Below are positions 5,049 through 12,937 of a DNA stretch of 64,000 nucleotides, in pieces (position 1 is the first letter of the stretch; every line of letters begins with the position of its first letter). This DNA is from an alpha proteobacterium AAP38 (lineage in GTDB: Bacteria; Pseudomonadota; Alphaproteobacteria; Azospirillales; Azospirillaceae), in assembly GCA_001296005.1 (NCBI GenBank), contig LJHR01000024.1:1-64000 (forward strand). The letters are read 5' to 3'. Under the pieces are notes generated by a model. The model did no database searches, was not told the DNA's origin, and saw only the letters and a program-made list of their open reading frames with translations. A program made the translations under genes and the position numbers.

Positions 5049-5828
5049 ATGTCCGGTACCGAAATGACTCTTGTTGATATTGCCCTTCGTGTCCTACCAT
5101 TGTTGGATCTGACCAGCCTGAATGACGCGGATGACGCCGACAGCACCGCCGCCCTGTGCGCCAGGGCGGTGACGCCGGCGGGGAATGTGGTGGCGGTCTG
5201 CCTTTGGTCATCCTTTGTTCCGCAAGCGAAACAAACATTGATCGGCAGTACTGTGAAGGTGGCGACGGTGGTCAATTTCCCCGGCGGGTCGTTGCCGGCG
5301 GAAAAGGTCGTGGACCAGATCGCCCGTGCCCTGGCCGATGGGGCGGACGAGATCGACGTGGTCATGCCCTATGCCGCCGTCATGGCCGGGATGGGCGGTG
5401 ACCAGCGGGCCTTGGACCATCTGGCCGCCTGCCGGGAGGCCTGTGGGCCTGCGACTATGAAGGTCATCCTGGAAAGCGGGGTGCTGGCCAAGCCGGCCCT
5501 TATCGAACGCGCCGCCCAGGTGGCGGTGACCGCCGGGGCGGATTTTCTGAAAACCTCCACCGGCAAGGTGCCGGCGGGCGCCACGCCGGGGGCGGCCCGC
5601 ATCATGCTGACCGCCTGTCGCGAGGCCGGGCGGCCCGTGGGCTTCAAGGCGTCGGGCGGCATCCGCGATGTCGAGACGGCGGCGCAGTATCTGGCCCTTG
5701 CAGATGATATCTGCGGGCCGGGCTGGGCCTCGCCCGCGACCTTCCGCTTTGGCGCATCGGGTCTGCTCGACGCGCTGCTGGGGGTGCTGGGGCATGGGCC
5801 AGAGACGAGGGTGACGGTGGGTTATTGA
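5049..5828 (+). CDS. deoC: Deoxyribose-phosphate aldolase
   Basis: Splits 2-deoxyribose-5-phosphate into glyceraldehyde-3-phosphate and acetaldehyde, the last step of deoxynucleoside breakdown. The 259-aa protein shows the class I aldolase lysines in F-L-K-T-S-T-G-K (Schiff-base Lys) and G-F-K-A-S-G-G-I-R (partner Lys), as in the E. coli enzyme. The ATG at 5049 sits one base after the cdd stop; an internal ATG at 5064 is an alternative because neither has a strong RBS, and translational coupling to cdd is likely. Its 3' end overlaps the convergent modC stop by 7 bp, leaving no room for a conventional terminator. Confidence 0.95.
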   Translation: MSGTEMTLVDIALRVLPLLDLTSLNDADDADSTAALCARAVTPAGNVVAVCLWSSFVPQAKQTLIGSTVKVATVVNFPGGSLPAEKVVDQIARALADGADEIDVVMPYAAVMAGMGGDQRALDHLAACREACGPATMKVILESGVLAKPALIERAAQVAVTAGADFLKTSTGKVPAGATPGAARIMLTACREAGRPVGFKASGGIRDVETAAQYLALADDICGPGWASPATFRFGASGLLDALLGVLGHGPETRVTVGY

Positions 5829-6466
5829 TCCATCGCCACCACCCCCTGTTCGACCCGCAGCCACGCCGTGGCCAGGGCCGCCACCTCCTCGCGTTGGTGG
5901 GTGACGTAGAGCATGGGCAGGCCGGTGCCGTCGCGCAGGCGCTGCAGGTAGGGCAGCAGTTCGGCCTTGCGGGCCGGGTCCAGGGCCGAAAGGGGCTCAT
6001 CCAGCAGCAGCAGCGCGGGGTTGGACAGCAGCGCCCGTCCGATGGCCACGCGTTGGCGTTCCCCGCCCGACAGGTCGCGGGGGCGGCGGTGCAGAAGCGG
6101 CGCGATGTCCAACAGATCGATGATGGTATCCAGGGTCGGCCCGTCCCGCCCGCGCCCGCCGAACAGCCGTCCATAGAGAAGATTGTGGCGGACATTCAGG
6201 TGGGGGAAAAGGCGCGCCTCCTGAAACACCTGCCCGACATGGCGGCGGTGGGGGGGCAGCCAGGTCCGGCTGTCGGTATCGACCAGAACCTTGCCATCCA
6301 GGACGATCCGCCCCGCCGAGGGCCGCGACAGGCCCGCGATCAGGGATAGAAGCGTGGTCTTGCCGGCACCCGACGGGCCGGTGATGGCCGTGACGCCGGG
6401 GCCGATGGAGAGGTCAGCGGTCAGGGTAAAGGTGCCGATCCGGTGGGTCAGCGACAGGTCAAGCAT
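5822..6466 (-). CDS. modC: Molybdate ABC transporter ATPase, short form
   Basis: ATPase of the molybdate importer. Walker A is G-P-S-G-A-G-K-T-T (about 30-38), the ABC signature is L-S-G-G-E-R-Q, and Walker B is L-L-L-L-D-E-P. At 214 aa it stops right after the ATPase core and lacks the C-terminal MOP/TOBE molybdate-binding domain that makes typical ModC about 350 aa. The gene neighbours make the assignment: modB overlaps its start by 8 bp and modA precedes modB. Loss of the MOP domain would remove the substrate-dependent transinhibition described for full-length ModC (inference). No frameshifted MOP domain is visible downstream because deoC occupies that sequence on the other strand. Confidence 0.92.
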   Translation of the reverse strand: MLDLSLTHRIGTFTLTADLSIGPGVTAITGPSGAGKTTLLSLIAGLSRPSAGRIVLDGKVLVDTDSRTWLPPHRRHVGQVFQEARLFPHLNVRHNLLYGRLFGGRGRDGPTLDTIIDLLDIAPLLHRRPRDLSGGERQRVAIGRALLSNPALLLLDEPLSALDPARKAELLPYLQRLRDGTGLPMLYVTHQREEVAALATAWLRVEQGVVAMDQ

Positions 6467-7157
6467 CGCGTCCCTCCACCCGCCGGCGCACGCGCCGTGC
6501 CAGTAATTCGCTGGCCGTTACCGCGATGATGGCGATCAGGGCGGCGACCAGGGTCAGGCGCAGGGCCGCCGCGTCGCCGCCCGGCACCTGCGTCAGCCCG
6601 TAAATGGCGGCGGGTAGGGTCTGTGTGACGCCGGGAATGGCCGCGACGAAGGTGATGGTGGCCCCGAATTCCCCCAGCGCCTTGGCAAAGCACAGGATGG
6701 CGCCGGACAGGATACCGGGCAGGGACAAGGGCAAGGTGACGGTCAGGAACACGGCCCAGGGCGGGGCGCCCAGCCCGGCCGCCGCATCCTCCAGCCGTGT
6801 ATCCACCGCCTCCATCGACAAGCGGATGGCGCGGACCAGCAGGGGGAAGGCCATGACCGAACAGGCCAGGACCGCCCCGGTCCAATTGAAGGCGAACACG
6901 ATCCCGAATTCGGCCAGAACCTGCCCCACCGGCCCCTTGCGCCCGAACAGCAGCAGCAGCAGATAGCCCGTGACAACCGGCGGCAGGACCAGGGGCAGGT
7001 GTACCAGCGCATCCAGCAGGATACGCCCCGGAAAGGACCGGCGGGCCAGCAGCCAGGCGACCAGGATACCCGGCCCCAGGCTGACGGCGGTGGCCCAGCA
7101 GGCCACCTTTACCGACAGCCAGATGGCCGTCATTTCCTCCGCCGTGAAGGTCCCCAT
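6459..7157 (-). CDS. modB: Molybdate ABC transporter permease
   Basis: A 232-aa inner-membrane permease with about five or six hydrophobic segments and the binding-protein-dependent transport motif: E-D-A-A-A-G-L-G-A then the L-P-L-S-L-P-G-I region that contacts ModC. Its ATG shares one base with the modA stop (TAATG at 7155-7159) and its end overlaps modC by 8 bp, so modABC is a tightly coupled operon read on the minus strand. Start is set by that coupling. Confidence 0.95.
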   Translation of the reverse strand: MGTFTAEEMTAIWLSVKVACWATAVSLGPGILVAWLLARRSFPGRILLDALVHLPLVLPPVVTGYLLLLLFGRKGPVGQVLAEFGIVFAFNWTGAVLACSVMAFPLLVRAIRLSMEAVDTRLEDAAAGLGAPPWAVFLTVTLPLSLPGILSGAILCFAKALGEFGATITFVAAIPGVTQTLPAAIYGLTQVPGGDAAALRLTLVAALIAIIAVTASELLARRVRRRVEGRDA

Positions 7158-7924
7158 TATTTGGTCAGCACCGTGAAGCCCTGATTGATGAAGTGACGCC
7201 GCCCTTCGTCTGTCTTCAGGAAATCCAGCAGCGGCTGGCTGGCGGCCTGGTCTGCCCCCTTCAGCAGGGCAACAGGATACTCGATCGGGGCGTGGCTGTC
7301 GGCGGGGAAGACGCCGACAATGGCCACGCCGGGTTCAACCCGCGCGTCGGTGGCATAGACGATGCCGGCCCCGGCCTCCCCCCGCGCCACCAGCGCCAGG
7401 GCGGCGCGGACATTCTCGGCGGGTGCCAGCTTGTCCGATACCTGGGACCACAGGCCCAGCTTGGTCAGCGCCGCCTTTGCATAGCGGCCCGCCGGTACGG
7501 CCTTGACATCGCCCACGGCCAGCCGCCGGCCATTCAGCAGGGCGGCGATATCCAGATTGCCGTCAATGGTCAGGCGCCTTGCCTGCGACCGTTCCATGAC
7601 CAGCACCAGTTGATTGCCCAGGAAGGTGAAGCGGCTGTCGGCCTGTACCAGCCCGGCCTTGACCAGATGATCCATCCATTCCTGATCGGCGGAGATGAAG
7701 ATATCCGCCGGTGCCCCCGCCTCGATCTGTTTGGCCAGGGCAGAACTGGCGGCATAGGCGGCGGTGGCGGTGCTGCCCGTCTGCGCCTTGTAGGCCACCA
7801 ATGCCTCATCCAATGCCGTCTTCAGGCTGGCTGCGGCATAGACGGTGGTGTCCTTTGCCCAGACCGCCGGTGCGAAGGCCAGGGACAGGGCAAGGAGGAG
7901 GGAGGAAAGGCGGAAACGGGCCAT
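7157..7924 (-). CDS. modA: Molybdate-binding periplasmic protein
   Basis: Captures molybdate or tungstate in the periplasm and delivers it to ModB. The 255-aa protein has a Sec signal peptide (M-A-R-F-R then a Leu/Ala-rich core, cleavage after A-V-W-A). A-A-A-S-L-K-T-A-L starts the mature protein and holds the oxyanion-binding serine of the family; A-S-S-A-L-A-K-Q-I-E and A-D-I-F-I-S-A-D follow. The ATG at 7924 begins the signal peptide; the open frame upstream is only translated intergenic repeat. First gene of modABC, with a ModE-box-like dyad 39-62 bp upstream. Confidence 0.95.
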   Translation of the reverse strand: MARFRLSSLLLALSLAFAPAVWAKDTTVYAAASLKTALDEALVAYKAQTGSTATAAYAASSALAKQIEAGAPADIFISADQEWMDHLVKAGLVQADSRFTFLGNQLVLVMERSQARRLTIDGNLDIAALLNGRRLAVGDVKAVPAGRYAKAALTKLGLWSQVSDKLAPAENVRAALALVARGEAGAGIVYATDARVEPGVAIVGVFPADSHAPIEYPVALLKGADQAASQPLLDFLKTDEGRRHFINQGFTVLTK

Positions 7925-7962
7925 GGTGCATCCTGACCTGACGGAAGGTAGCAGCAGATTAT

Positions 7963-7986
7963 CGTTATGTCTGGTAGAATACAACG
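7963..7986. promoter_or_regulatory. ModE-box-like operator upstream of modA
   Basis: Two half-sites, CGTTATGT (7963-7970) and ATACAACG (7979-7986), form an imperfect dyad with an 8-bp spacer. Its outer C-G-T-T and inner T-A-T steps resemble the ModE operators known upstream of mod operons. It lies 39 bp from the modA start, where a repressor would cover the promoter. No ModE gene is in the window, so regulation is an inference from sequence and position. Confidence 0.5.
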
Positions 7987-8012
7987 AGGCTGTTGGCGCG
8001 ATCATGATCCCG

Positions 8013-8049
8013 TGCAACCAGATGCAACAGAAAACATAGGGGTGTTTCA
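8013..8049. repeat. 37-bp direct repeat, copy 1
   Basis: Begins T-G-C-A-A-C-C-A-G-A-T-G and ends G-T-G-T-T-T-C-A. It matches the copy at 8087-8123 at 33 of 37 positions by eye, in the same orientation, 74 bp apart. It sits in the otherwise empty 330-bp interval between modA and the DUF938 gene. It is neither a tandem repeat nor a CRISPR; a dispersed element or duplicated regulatory stretch is possible. Confidence 0.75.
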
Positions 8050-8086
8050 GAGTTCGGGCCTTCGCCCCTCCGAGTGCGGGTGCCCC

Positions 8087-8123
8087 TGCAACCAGATGTA
8101 ACAGAAAATAAAAGGGTGTTTCA
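8087..8123. repeat. 37-bp direct repeat, copy 2
   Basis: Second copy of the element at 8013-8049, differing at four positions. The sequence from 8124 to 8254 after it holds nothing I can recognise. Confidence 0.75.
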
Positions 8124-8254
8124 TGGTTCATGCCTTACCCGATCCGAACGCCAAGCGCGTCGGATTGCAGCGGACAGGGGAAGGGCGTTGAGAAAGCCAT
8201 TGTAGCAGAGACCGGCCAGAAAGTCAGCCATTCCACCGCCTCTGCCGTCCCCGG

Positions 8255-9019: not shown

Positions 9020-9352
9020 ATGCCCTACGTCGTTACCGAGGCCTGCATCAAGTGCAAGTACACTGACTGCGTTGAAGTCTGCCCCGTCGACTGCTTCTAC
9101 GAGGGTGAGAACACGCTGGTCATCCATCCCGATGAATGCATCGATTGCGGCGTTTGCGAGCCGGAATGCCCGGCGGAGGCCATTCTGCCCGACACCGACC
9201 CGCGCGCCGAACAGTGGCTGGCCATGAACCGCGAATATGCCGGGCAGTGGCCCGTCATCAATCGTCGCAAGGACCCGCTGCCCGACGCCGACGCCTGGAA
9301 GGGCGTGCCCGACAAGTTCGAGAAGCATTTCAGCCCCAAGCCGGGGAAGTAA
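9020..9352 (+). CDS. fdxA: Seven-iron ferredoxin
   Basis: A 110-aa soluble electron carrier of the FdxA type. The first cluster region has [14 protein letters not shown], the second [12 protein letters not shown], the layout that binds one 3Fe-4S and one 4Fe-4S cluster. The ATG at 9020 follows a GGGG run and starts right at the conserved M-P-Y-V-V-T-E. The long frame upstream is antisense to the DUF938 gene and unrelated. A hairpin follows the stop, then carD. Confidence 0.96.
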
Positions 9353-9705: not shown

Positions 9706-10206
9706 ATGTCCGAAAGCCTAGATTTCACCACCGGGGATCACGTTGTGTATCCGGCCCACGGCGTGGGACAGATCATCGGGATCGAGACCCACAGCATCGC
9801 CGACATGAGCGTGACGCTGTACGCCATCCAGTTCGAAAAGGAACGGATGACGTTGAAGGTTCCGGTGGCGAAGGCCAAGGCCTCCGGCCTGCGCCGCCTG
9901 TCCACCAAGGACCGGATCAAGGCCGCCATGGAGACCCTGCAGGGCCCCAGCAAGATCAAGCGCATCATGTGGAGCCGCCGCGCCCAGGAATATGAAGCGA
10001 AGATCAATTCCGGCGACCCGGTTTCCATCGCGGAGGTCGTGCGCGACCTGTATCGCGGTGAAGACCAGTCCGACCAGTCCTACAGCGAGCGTCAGATTTA
10101 TCATGCCGCTCTGGAGCGTCTGGCCCGTGAGCTGGCCGTCGTCGAGAAGATCGACGAGCGCAAGGCCACCGAAAAGCTGGAAGCCGTGCTGAGCAAGGCG
10201 GCTTGA
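9706..10206 (+). CDS. carD: CarD-family transcriptional regulator
   Basis: A 166-aa CarD/CdnL-type protein. CarD binds the RNA polymerase beta subunit and stabilises open promoter complexes, mainly at rRNA and other growth promoters. The N-terminal Tudor-like RNAP-interaction domain is visible as D-H-V-V-Y-P-A-H-G-V-G-Q-I, followed by a helical DNA-binding half (D-L-Y-R-G-E-D...S-Y-S-E-R-Q-I-Y). The ATG at 9706 has an AAGAGAG RBS; an in-frame extension to 9667 lacks family similarity. fdxA just upstream is a pairing I associate with alphaproteobacteria. A strong intrinsic terminator follows. Confidence 0.94.
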   Translation: MSESLDFTTGDHVVYPAHGVGQIIGIETHSIADMSVTLYAIQFEKERMTLKVPVAKAKASGLRRLSTKDRIKAAMETLQGPSKIKRIMWSRRAQEYEAKINSGDPVSIAEVVRDLYRGEDQSDQSYSERQIYHAALERLARELAVVEKIDERKATEKLEAVLSKAA

Positions 10207-10268
10207 TCGGGGTACACCCACAAGATCAAGCATCCCGCTGTTAAAAAATCGGGATATTTAGTATGAAA

Positions 10269-10300
10269 GGGGCGTTCACTTGTTGAACGCCCCTTTTTTT
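10269..10300 (+). terminator. Intrinsic terminator of carD
   Basis: A perfect 10-bp stem (10269-10278 with 10284-10293), a 5-base loop and a run of seven T at 10294-10300. It is the clearest single-direction terminator in the window. Confidence 0.92.
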
Positions 10301-10353
10301 GCGCCGCCGCACGCCCTACACTGGCTTTGCCAAGAAAAACCTGCCGGGACCCC

Positions 10354-11172
10354 ATGTCGGATGATCGCAAATATGCCTTGCTGGGTCGGCCACGCCGCGT
10401 GTGGGCGGTGGGTGCCATCCATGGCGAGGCGGCGCGTCTGGCGGCCCTGCATGATGATGTCGGCAAGCGCTTCCTGCCCGGTGACCGTCTGGTCTATCTG
10501 GGTAACATGATCGGCCGGGGCGTGGCCGTGCGCGAGACGATTGAGGAATTGCTGTCCTTCCGGCGCGAGATCATGGCGCGGCGCGGCGTGGTGGCGACCG
10601 ACATCGTTTACTTGCGCGGCGGGCAGGAGGAGATGTGGCAGAAGCTGTTGCAGCTTCAGTTCGCGCCAGACCCCGCCGCCGTGCTGCAATGGATGATCGG
10701 GCAGGGGCTGGACACCACGCTGGCGGCCTATGGCGGCAATGCCCAATATGGGCTGGTGTCGGCCAAGGAAGGGGCCGTGACGCTGGCCCGCTGGACCGGG
10801 GAACTGCGCGCCGCCATGCGCGCCGCGCCGGGCCATGACAATCTGCTGAGTGCGGTGCGCCGCTGCGCATATACCAGCGCGCCGGACGGGGCACCGACGG
10901 AGCTGCTGTTCGTTAATGCCGGGCTGGACCCGGCCAAACCGCTGCATATGCAGGCCGACATCTTCTGGTGGGGCGGCAGTTCCTTTGCCCGCATCGTGGA
11001 ACCCTATAATGGTTTTCGCCGTGTCGTGCGCGGTTATGACCCGACCCATGGGCCGGGCCCGACCGTCACCGATTTCACGGCTAGCCTGGATGGTGGGGCC
11101 GGCTTCGGTGGCCGCCTGATCTGTGCCTGCTTTGCCCCCGACGGGCAGATGCTGGAATTGGCCGAAGCCTGA
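10354..11172 (+). CDS. PPP-type metallophosphoesterase homologue, probably catalytically dead
   Basis: A 272-aa protein that follows the order of motifs of bacterial serine/threonine (PPP) phosphatases but with most metal-binding residues replaced. Expected G-D-x-H-G reads G-A-I-H-G; G-D-x-x-D-R-G reads G-N-M-I-G-R-G; R-G-N-H-E reads R-G-G-Q-E-E; the V-H-A-G-L motif reads V-N-A-G-L; and the last G-H-T reads G-Y-D. The fold is therefore conserved while di-metal catalysis should be lost. The ATG at 10354 starts at M-S-D-D-R-K; upstream sequence to 10327 is terminator-proximal. It lies between the carD terminator and rpoH, in the same direction and 99 bp before rpoH. A scaffold or phosphoprotein-binding role is a guess; a diverged substrate class is the alternative. 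Confidence 0.75.
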   Translation: MSDDRKYALLGRPRRVWAVGAIHGEAARLAALHDDVGKRFLPGDRLVYLGNMIGRGVAVRETIEELLSFRREIMARRGVVATDIVYLRGGQEEMWQKLLQLQFAPDPAAVLQWMIGQGLDTTLAAYGGNAQYGLVSAKEGAVTLARWTGELRAAMRAAPGHDNLLSAVRRCAYTSAPDGAPTELLFVNAGLDPAKPLHMQADIFWWGGSSFARIVEPYNGFRRVVRGYDPTHGPGPTVTDFTASLDGGAGFGGRLICACFAPDGQMLELAEA

Positions 11173-11181
11173 AAAATTTTC

Positions 11182-11204
11182 AGGACGGTTGATCCAACCG
11201 TCCT
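11182..11204 (+). terminator. Hairpin between the pseudophosphatase gene and rpoH
   Basis: A perfect 10-bp stem (11182-11191 with 11195-11204) and a 3-base loop sit 10 bp after the stop. No T-run follows, so it may be a weak terminator, a processing site, or part of the rpoH leader. Confidence 0.5.
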
Positions 11205-11271
11205 TCGCCTCCGTACCAAGGATCAAGCAAGGGCACATGCCCCCCCCTGTTCCAGCGACGGAGAGTGACCG

Positions 11272-12159
11272 ATGGCGTCCATCGACGATCCCGAAACCCA
11301 GCGTGCCAACCTGGCTTTCATCCGCGCCTCGATGAAAGAACCGCTGCTGGCCCGTGATCACGAGCTGGATCTGGCCCGCCGCTGGCGGGAGAAGGGGGAC
11401 GAGAAGGCGCTGCATGAGCTGGTGCGTTCCTACACCCGTCTCGTGATCTCCACCGCTACGCGTTTCCGCCATTACGGCATTCCCATGGGCGATCTGGTGC
11501 AGGAAGGCAATGTCGGCCTGATGCAGGCGGCGGGCCGGTTCGAGCCGGAACGCGACGTCCGCTTCTCCACCTATGCCGCTTGGTGGATACGGTCGGCCAT
11601 GCAGGATCATATCCTTCGCAACTGGTCCATCGTGCGTACCGGAACCACGGCGGCGCAGAAGTCGTTGTTCTTCAACCTGCGCCGCTTGCGCGCCAAGATC
11701 GCCGACAATCCCTCGTCCGATCATCTGTCCACCGACGCGCGCCAGCAGATTGCCCGAGAACTGGATATCGACGCCCGTGAGGTGGAGACGATGGAGATGC
11801 GGCTGGCCGCCTGTGACCAGTCGTTGAATGCCACCATGGTCATGGATGGCGAAGCGGAATGGCAGGACATCCTGCCCGACAGCCGCCCCAACCCCGAGGA
11901 TGTGGTGATCGGCATGCGCGACGGGCGCATGCGGTCCAAGTGGCTGGCCGAAGCGCTGGGCGAACTGTCGCCGCGTGAACGCCAGATCATCGCCGAACGC
12001 CGCCTGCGCGACGAAGGGGCGACGCTGGAAGAGTTGGGCCGTGCGCTTGGCGTGTCCAAGGAACGCGTCCGCCAGTTGGAAAGCCGCGCCATGAACAAGC
12101 TGCGCGCCAGCATGATGAAGCGCGTGGCCGATGGCCGCGATCTGTTTATGGAAGCGTGA
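11272..12159 (+). CDS. rpoH: RNA polymerase sigma-32 (heat-shock) factor
   Basis: Directs RNA polymerase to heat-shock promoters. The 295-aa protein has region 2 (V-Q-E-G-N-V-G-L-M-Q-A, then F-S-T-Y-A-A-W-W-I-R), the RpoH-specific box Q-K-S-L-F-F-N-L-R between regions 2 and 3, and region 4 with L-S-P-R-E-R-Q-I-I and the V-S-K-E-R-V-R-Q-L-E helix-turn-helix. GGAGAG upstream of the ATG at 11272 sets the start. Alphaproteobacteria often have several RpoH paralogues; which one this is cannot be told. It converges with the VWA-like gene, leaving 7 bp between stops and no visible terminator. Confidence 0.95.
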   Translation: MASIDDPETQRANLAFIRASMKEPLLARDHELDLARRWREKGDEKALHELVRSYTRLVISTATRFRHYGIPMGDLVQEGNVGLMQAAGRFEPERDVRFSTYAAWWIRSAMQDHILRNWSIVRTGTTAAQKSLFFNLRRLRAKIADNPSSDHLSTDARQQIARELDIDAREVETMEMRLAACDQSLNATMVMDGEAEWQDILPDSRPNPEDVVIGMRDGRMRSKWLAEALGELSPRERQIIAERRLRDEGATLEELGRALGVSKERVRQLESRAMNKLRASMMKRVADGRDLFMEA

Positions 12160-12166
12160 GGGGCGG

Positions 12167-12937
12167 TTATTCCCCGCCACCCCCATACCAGAGGCCGATG
12201 CTGATGCTGCTGGCGCCGCTGGCCTTCAGATAGGCGGTCCAGAAATCCCGCACCCTGTTCTCCACGGGGCGGGACAGGGCCTTGCGGCCAGGGTCATGGC
12301 CCCGGCCAAAGCCGAACATGTCGACCTGCACCTGTGTCAGCGGCGCCAGAAGCCGTTGATCGGTGACGGTGCGCAGGTTCTTCGCGGGCTGCCCCTCCGA
12401 GAGCGCCGTATAGGGTAGCAGGTCGGAATGTTCCAGAAGATCGGAAAAGACGATCATCCGGTTCAGCCCGCGCGGTTTCCAGGTTTCGGCGACATTGCCG
12501 ATGGTGCGCAGGATTTCAGAGCGCGGATAGGCCTGCTTCTCCTTCAGCATGCCGATCAGAACCTGGGCCAGCCGGCGTTTGAACTCCCGGTTTTCCGCCT
12601 TGGCGACGGTCGGCTTGCAGGTGGCCATGATCCAGTCCGTCAGACCACCGCCTTCGGGGCAGCCGGGCACGCATTCCTCGAACTTGCGGGCCGACGCCGC
12701 ATAATCGTCGGTGATGGTATGGACCACCAGCCGGTCACCGGGCTTCAGTTCGCCCACGAACCGGTCAAGGCCCGCAATCAGGATGTCGATATCCTGCTGA
12801 TCATATGGGGTGGTGCGGTCCACCAGCAGGGCGACGGTGCCCGTGCCCTGCTTGCAGTAATCCTGCCGCGCGGCCAGGGCGGCGGGCGCCAGACCGGCCA
12901 GCAGCGCCAGGAGAAGCAGGAGCCGGCCCAGCCTCAT
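12167..12937 (-). CDS. Exported VWA-like protein of unknown function
   Basis: A 256-aa protein with a Sec signal peptide (Leu-rich core, A-L-A-A near residue 23). The mature part opens with V-A-L-L-V-D-R-T-T-P-Y, which resembles the first strand and D-x-T/S metal-site region of von Willebrand A domains, and later N-R-M-I-V-F-S-D-L-L-E, like the VWA strand-4 aspartate. Cysteines in the first part (Y-C-K-Q, E-C-V-P-G-C, T-C-K-P) may form periplasmic disulfides. Its start overlaps the end of the upstream membrane protein gene by 4 bp (ATGA), so the two are translationally coupled. I do not recognise a named family. Confidence 0.75.
   Translation of the reverse strand: MRLGRLLLLLALLAGLAPAALAARQDYCKQGTGTVALLVDRTTPYDQQDIDILIAGLDRFVGELKPGDRLVVHTITDDYAASARKFEECVPGCPEGGGLTDWIMATCKPTVAKAENREFKRRLAQVLIGMLKEKQAYPRSEILRTIGNVAETWKPRGLNRMIVFSDLLEHSDLLPYTALSEGQPAKNLRTVTDQRLLAPLTQVQVDMFGFGRGHDPGRKALSRPVENRVRDFWTAYLKASGASSISIGLWYGGGGE

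Follow-up and report, generated by a model that had tools for sequence, protein, structure and literature searches.

In the PPP enzymes the metal site is assembled from five motifs, GDxHG (motif 1), GDxxDRG (motif 2), GNHE (motif 3), HAG (motif 4) and GHT (motif 5), which contribute the six ligands DxH, D, N, H and H. The symmetrical Ap4A hydrolase ApaH uses the same metal residues, and lambda protein phosphatase (1g5b) is presumably active, with Mn and a full set of ligands. Pseudophosphatases of the PPP type are hardly known. PfPPP8 of the apicomplexan Plasmodium was called the first PPP pseudophosphatase by its authors in 2023; their report states that no activity was found and assigns the protein a role in the basal complex (PMC10317984). 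For Caulobacter, another report (PMC11034885) describes CdnL as a target of ClpXP in starvation and keeps open whether an adaptor sensitive to (p)ppGpp takes part. The openly licensed literature, represented mainly by titles and the beginnings of abstracts, yielded no description of the bacterial pseudophosphatase family treated here, nor was a paper found there that joins CdnL with a metallophosphoesterase.

The window, i.e. the whole stretch of DNA that was analysed, comprises 64,000 nucleotides from the alpha proteobacterium AAP38 (assembly GCA_001296005.1, contig LJHR01000024.1). It carries, in this order and on one strand, genes for a ferredoxin, CarD/CdnL, a PPP-fold pseudophosphatase and a sigma-32 factor. 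The stop codon of the pseudophosphatase gene is separated by 99 bp from the ATG of rpoH at 11272. The features are as follows (window positions):

9020-9352, + strand: ferredoxin of the carD neighbourhood, upstream on the same strand at most loci; we take it to be of the FdxA type
9706-10206, + strand: carD/cdnL, the best-conserved neighbour; Pfam CarD domains over the cut-off
10265-10297, + strand: terminator-like 14-bp hairpin running into a T-run 3' of carD; z -3.1 for 10235-10310, not listed by the terminator pattern scan
10354-11172, + strand: PPP-fold pseudophosphatase, 272 aa; ORF with ATG start, supported by homologues, model and dN/dS
10411-10425, + strand: motif 1, GAIHG (residues 20-24) replacing GDxHG; metal Asp gone (Asp in 0/98 family members), His retained (82/98)
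10501-10521, + strand: motif 2, GNMIGRG (residues 50-56) replacing GDxxDRG; both Asp gone (0/98 in both columns), Asn51 in 93/98, Gly54 in 98/98
10615-10632, + strand: motif 3, RGGQEE (residues 88-93) replacing RGNHE; Asn and His gone (2/98 each), Gln91 in 89/98, Glu retained (Glu92 in 98/98)
10912-10923, + strand: motif 4, VNAG (residues 187-190) replacing VHAG; in the family His in 50/98, Asn in 21, Ser in 19, Ala in 5 and Pro in 3
11029-11040, + strand: motif 5, RGYD (residues 226-229) replacing HGHT; motif-5 His in 3/98
11086-11112, + strand: C-terminal LDGGAGFGG, corresponding in the alignment with active relatives to IDTGAxxxG of the active PPPs
11182-11204, no strand assigned: 10-bp hairpin between the pseudophosphatase gene and rpoH, terminator-like on the minus strand only; z -3.75 for 11165-11275
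11272-12159, + strand: sigma-32 factor (NF005693, 379.5 bits, cut-off 315), presumably of the RpoH2 type

The sigma factor passes NF005693, but with TIGR02392 (rpoH_proteo) it scores 284.9 bits, below the cut-off of 323.1. An antisense open frame of 636 codons (10276-12186, - strand) covers the pseudophosphatase-rpoH region; minus-strand frames form one similarity cluster in 86 of 97 related loci, and the 636-codon frame probably stems from GC-rich codon use. Frames at 5644-8131 on the minus strand resemble a molybdate ABC transporter and are, we assume, ModC, ModB and ModA.

The initial annotation had read 10354-11172 as a protein which keeps the PPP scaffold, carries altered sequences at all five motifs, and preserves only the motif-1 His of the metal ligands. 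Alignment with 20 intact relatives bore this out. The five motifs of the window protein fell in the GDxHG, GDxxDRG, GNHE, HAG and GHT columns, and one of the six metal ligands was retained. Two other motif residues are retained besides the His, namely R55 (Arg of DRG) and E92 (Glu of GNHE). All 20 fetched weaker relatives, by contrast with the window protein, possess six of six ligands.

The AlphaFold model of the window protein had a mean pLDDT of 95.5 and a pTM of 0.93. When it was compared with solved structures by Foldseek, the best match was lambda phosphatase 1g5b (E 3e-9), a putative diadenosine tetraphosphatase (2qjc) and human PP5 were among the other top matches, and 181 PDB chains were found at E<=0.001. 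TM-scores to solved PPPs were moderate, approximately 0.5-0.6 on query length (0.55 for 1g5b, rmsd 5.7). Model and matches together assign the protein to the PPP fold of the metallophosphoesterase superfamily. Homology at the sequence level was established by hhalign, which aligned the family with active PPPs at a probability of 99.8% (E 4e-28, 223 columns; the alignment included 19 of the 20 active rows).

The extent of the family was surveyed with a profile made from the window protein and 62 relatives, which was run on 289 genomes sampled evenly across the class. Strong matches, scoring at least 169.8 bits, were obtained in 98 genomes; the scores then dropped to 79.7 bits. The sequences compared were 97 strong loci plus the window, giving 98 members; the 20 weaker matches fetched as active relatives were mostly the best ones. 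In a quick tree with these 20 active rows the two groups were divided by a single branch whose SH-aLRT support was 100. In a separate scan, genome contigs yielded 283 relatives, the best 80 of which were kept.

In a sample of the phylum 8 of 299 genomes matched at E<=1e-30 and all 8 belong to the same class, the share of the 299 lying outside the class being not given. Plasmid records yielded 5 matches at merely 25.7-29.1% identity (2 annotated as metallophosphoesterase, 1 as metallophosphoesterase family protein, 2 without annotation). Two contigs titled Anaerolineae (L041) and Chromatiaceae MAG (L074) contain carD together with the pseudophosphatase gene, in loci close to those of Alphaproteobacteria; they are probably mis-binned. 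With Pfam the window protein had no match at E 0.01 (DUF6257 at 0.28 only), and among 63 members Metallophos_3 was found in 5 and Metallophos in 1 at E<=0.01, the best value being 7e-4. Among NCBIfam models the best match of the window protein was the symmetrical Ap4A hydrolase NF001204 with 15.9 bits (E 0.006); the cut-off is 176 bits, so the protein is not a member. A close active paralogue was sought in its own genome: there were 8 Metallophos matches, and none of the frames read had the PPP motif set.

The possibility that the window contains a single damaged copy of an enzyme intact in its relatives was excluded, since the three metal-site Asp are replaced in all 98 members. Pairwise dN/dS of the gene was 0.028 with its nearest relative, 0.072 with the second and 0.20-0.23 with a further four (L002 and L210 had identical values and were counted once), demonstrating that it is under purifying selection. 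For carD (same six pairs) and for rpoH (the four pairs where it was found) dN/dS was lower still. A chance ORF was likewise ruled out by the 283 relatives and by dN/dS of 0.03-0.23 against six of them. The earlier description of an intact scaffold was thus upheld by 98 degenerate members, an intact sister group, purifying selection and a fold predicted with high confidence.

The family is less uniform than its window member in the motif-4 His, in the Asn and His of motif 3 and in the motif-5 His. None of the ligands was retained in 11 members, one in 39, two in 46 and three in 2; the commonest retained sets were His23 plus His188 (43 members) and His23 alone (35). The only two members with the motif-3 Asn (L215 and L221, RGNQEE) both have His23. 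In the alignment of the window protein with the best 80 of the 283 relatives, in which L001 has the same sequence as the window protein and L003 ends at a contig edge, Trp17, His23, Gly54, Gln91, Glu92, Glu93 and Trp95 are identical in 81 of 81 rows and Asn51 in 79. Among more divergent members the former active-site columns relax, as seen with His23 in the 98-member set. Mean entropy was lower in the motif columns (1.09 bits) than in the remaining ones (1.87 bits; permutation 0.0003), indicating that the former active site is still constrained despite the lost metal ligands. This conservation may be partly structural. Trp17, Arg88, Glu93, Trp205 and Arg226 (the last in 92/98) are conserved in the pseudophosphatase family and not in the active group.

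Of 97 loci, 83 have carD upstream of the pseudophosphatase gene in the same orientation and 14 lack it at that place. The gap between the two, calculated from start positions that were estimated from the profile, had a median of 119 bp; it was shorter than 300 bp in 76 of the 83 loci and was <=20 bp, or replaced by an overlap, in 11. In four loci (L202, L220, L223 and L185) about 1.4-1.5 kb lies between the genes, leaving room for an extra gene. In 72 of the 97 loci a ferredoxin gene also lies upstream in the same orientation. As a control, the carD loci of 20 genomes without the pseudophosphatase were inspected, hand-picked for long contigs and not random. Ferredoxin preceded carD on the same strand in 17 of them. 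Because the neighbourhood of carD is this stable without the pseudophosphatase gene, the latter may sit beside carD by inertia. This caveat is common to carD and rpoH; carD is the better conserved neighbour and its linkage is the stronger one. A search of the 97 loci for fusions revealed no ORF combining the pseudophosphatase with CarD or RpoH.

In the window, carD and the pseudophosphatase gene are probably separate units because the 14-bp stem leading into a T-run follows carD. With a terminator-like stem between the two genes in 44 of the 83 loci as well, they would often be transcribed separately. The hairpin that precedes rpoH has no T-run on the + strand and the terminator pattern scan listed none there on that strand, therefore co-transcription of the pseudophosphatase gene with rpoH is possible in the window species.

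CarD was present in 255 of the 289 genomes and in 96 of the 98 carriers, G166 and G187 being carriers without a CarD match. Mirror-tree correlations were 0.73 (71 loci) and 0.79 (35) for PPP-CarD, 0.76 (35) for PPP-RpoH, and 0.81 and 0.80 on 31 loci; ferredoxin, used as a control, gave inconsistent values (0.07 for 71 loci, 0.50 for 31); the method therefore discriminates nothing and was dropped. A C-terminal AA tail of CarD was seen in 71 of 84 cases with and in 14 of 20 without the pseudophosphatase, i.e. there is no clear link.

The protein is homologous to PPP enzymes, has lost their ligands, is separated from active relatives by one split, is under purifying selection and is frequently linked to carD. 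We interpret it as a member of an old alphaproteobacterial family of dead PPP proteins and as a regulator that works by binding within the CarD/CdnL-RNA polymerase pathway, and give this reading an even chance. The pathway is assigned, with moderate confidence, because of the gene neighbourhood. The conserved site and the five residues conserved in the family and not in the active group point to binding, so that the protein would act by binding and not by catalysis. Three other explanations were weighed against this one. The protein could serve the heat-shock factor RpoH2 as a partner, either as an anti-sigma or as a stability factor, with its gene placed directly ahead of that of its target, much as the initial annotation had supposed in proposing that it tunes RpoH. 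The arrangement in the window agrees with such a role, since rpoH is only 99 bp away on the same strand and the T-run stem stands after carD and not before rpoH. RpoH2-type sigma factors over the NF005693 cut-off (122 of 289 genomes) are also commoner in carriers, 61/98 vs 61/191 (p 1.4e-6, without correction for kinship). Adjacency to rpoH, whose conservation had been named as a check, is not a general trait: of the 97 loci, 36 have a sigma-32 gene downstream in the same orientation, 55 carry none there, 5 stop too soon to tell and 1 is arranged otherwise. Moreover, rpoH came right after carD in 4 of the 20 control genomes; this order exists without the pseudophosphatase, therefore rpoH as a neighbour is weak evidence. 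Thirty-seven of the 98 carriers have no RpoH2-type factor over the cut-off, and G136 (99% complete), G056 (95%), G274 (89%) and G226 (70%) lack any NF005693 match better than ~1e-34, which is not the distribution of a dedicated regulator found only where RpoH2 is and adjoining it. We consider the RpoH2 partnership unlikely. Two RpoH2-type matches (G010:C49:334-1164 and G120:C2:126108-126914) contain one in-frame stop each.

That the protein has kept enzymatic activity, as a phosphoesterase or some other hydrolase using a single metal or other residues such as His23, Gln91, Glu92 and their neighbours, is distinctly improbable. The frequencies of these residues and of Arg226, the unusual conservation of the motif columns, the motif-4 His kept by half of the family and the two members that retain His23 with both later His would fit residual chemistry. 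Against this, no member has more than three of six ligands, and the replaced columns include the bridging Asp of dinuclear phosphoesterases. Dinuclear catalysis seems implausible because Asp21, Asp51 and Asp54 are gone in 98 and Asn90 in 96 of the 98 sequences. A sensor of nucleotide alarmones, derived from an Np4A-type or related hydrolase and signalling to CarD/RNA polymerase through a bound nucleotide, would make sense of the conserved motif columns and of the weak matches to symmetrical Ap4A hydrolase (NF001204; PDB 9t9n, E 0.0025 with the profile). It could also be the kind of factor for which the Caulobacter study leaves a place in CdnL proteolysis (PMC11034885), an analogy that we regard as a lead, not as evidence. 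However, the NF001204 score is far from membership, the Arg of DRG is not conserved (29/98), and the CarD tail shows no clear link to the family, all of which leaves little probability for an alarmone sensor.

The simplest origin of the family is a single loss of the dinuclear metal site from active PPP phosphoesterases. The former active site would have become a conserved pocket, very probably metal-free and comprising His23, Asn51, Gly54, Gln91, Glu92, Glu93 and Arg226. The pseudophosphatase might hold, for instance, CarD or a protein acting on CarD, and a small phosphorylated ligand in the pocket is a possible signal. In the most elaborate form of this proposal, a PPP phosphatase would have been converted in the Alphaproteobacteria to a ligand sensor without metals that controls CarD/CdnL and hence rRNA and stress transcription, possibly as a signal-sensitive CdnL adaptor such as the Caulobacter study allows for; in this form the proposal is doubtful. 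If true, it would mean a transcription-linked pseudophosphatase family in bacteria. The linkage to carD offers a concrete lead on the regulation of an RNA polymerase factor acting at rRNA promoters. The family, with its remade and conserved site in a fold with few known pseudophosphatases, occurs in about one third of the sampled alphaproteobacterial genomes and is scarcely detected by Pfam; our guess is that it has been filed as metallophosphoesterase and taken for an enzyme.

Among the known systems, lambda protein phosphatase 1g5b is the best fold match (TM 0.66 on 1g5b length), with 16-18% identity to the window protein. ApaH shows weak matches in the N-terminal motifs, far below the family cut-off, and the metal residues of ApaH are absent in the window family. 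The active alphaproteobacterial PPP metallophosphoesterases (GDxHG, GDYVDRG, GNHE, HAG, GHT) have the order and spacing of the motifs in common with the pseudophosphatases, as well as the segments W..GG..TL.SYG, HAG..P...Q and IDTGA, in keeping with the hhalign result. They differ in having all six ligands in the 20 sequences read, compared with 0-3 in the pseudophosphatase family, and in forming a separate branch. PfPPP8, compared here by its published description, resembles the window protein in its PPP domain and in the replacement of the motif-2 Asp by Asn (GNLINRG in PfPPP8, GNMIGRG in the window protein), whereas it is eukaryotic and its described loss is in motif 2, while the window family is bacterial, is hit in five motifs and is mostly encoded beside carD (PMC10317984).
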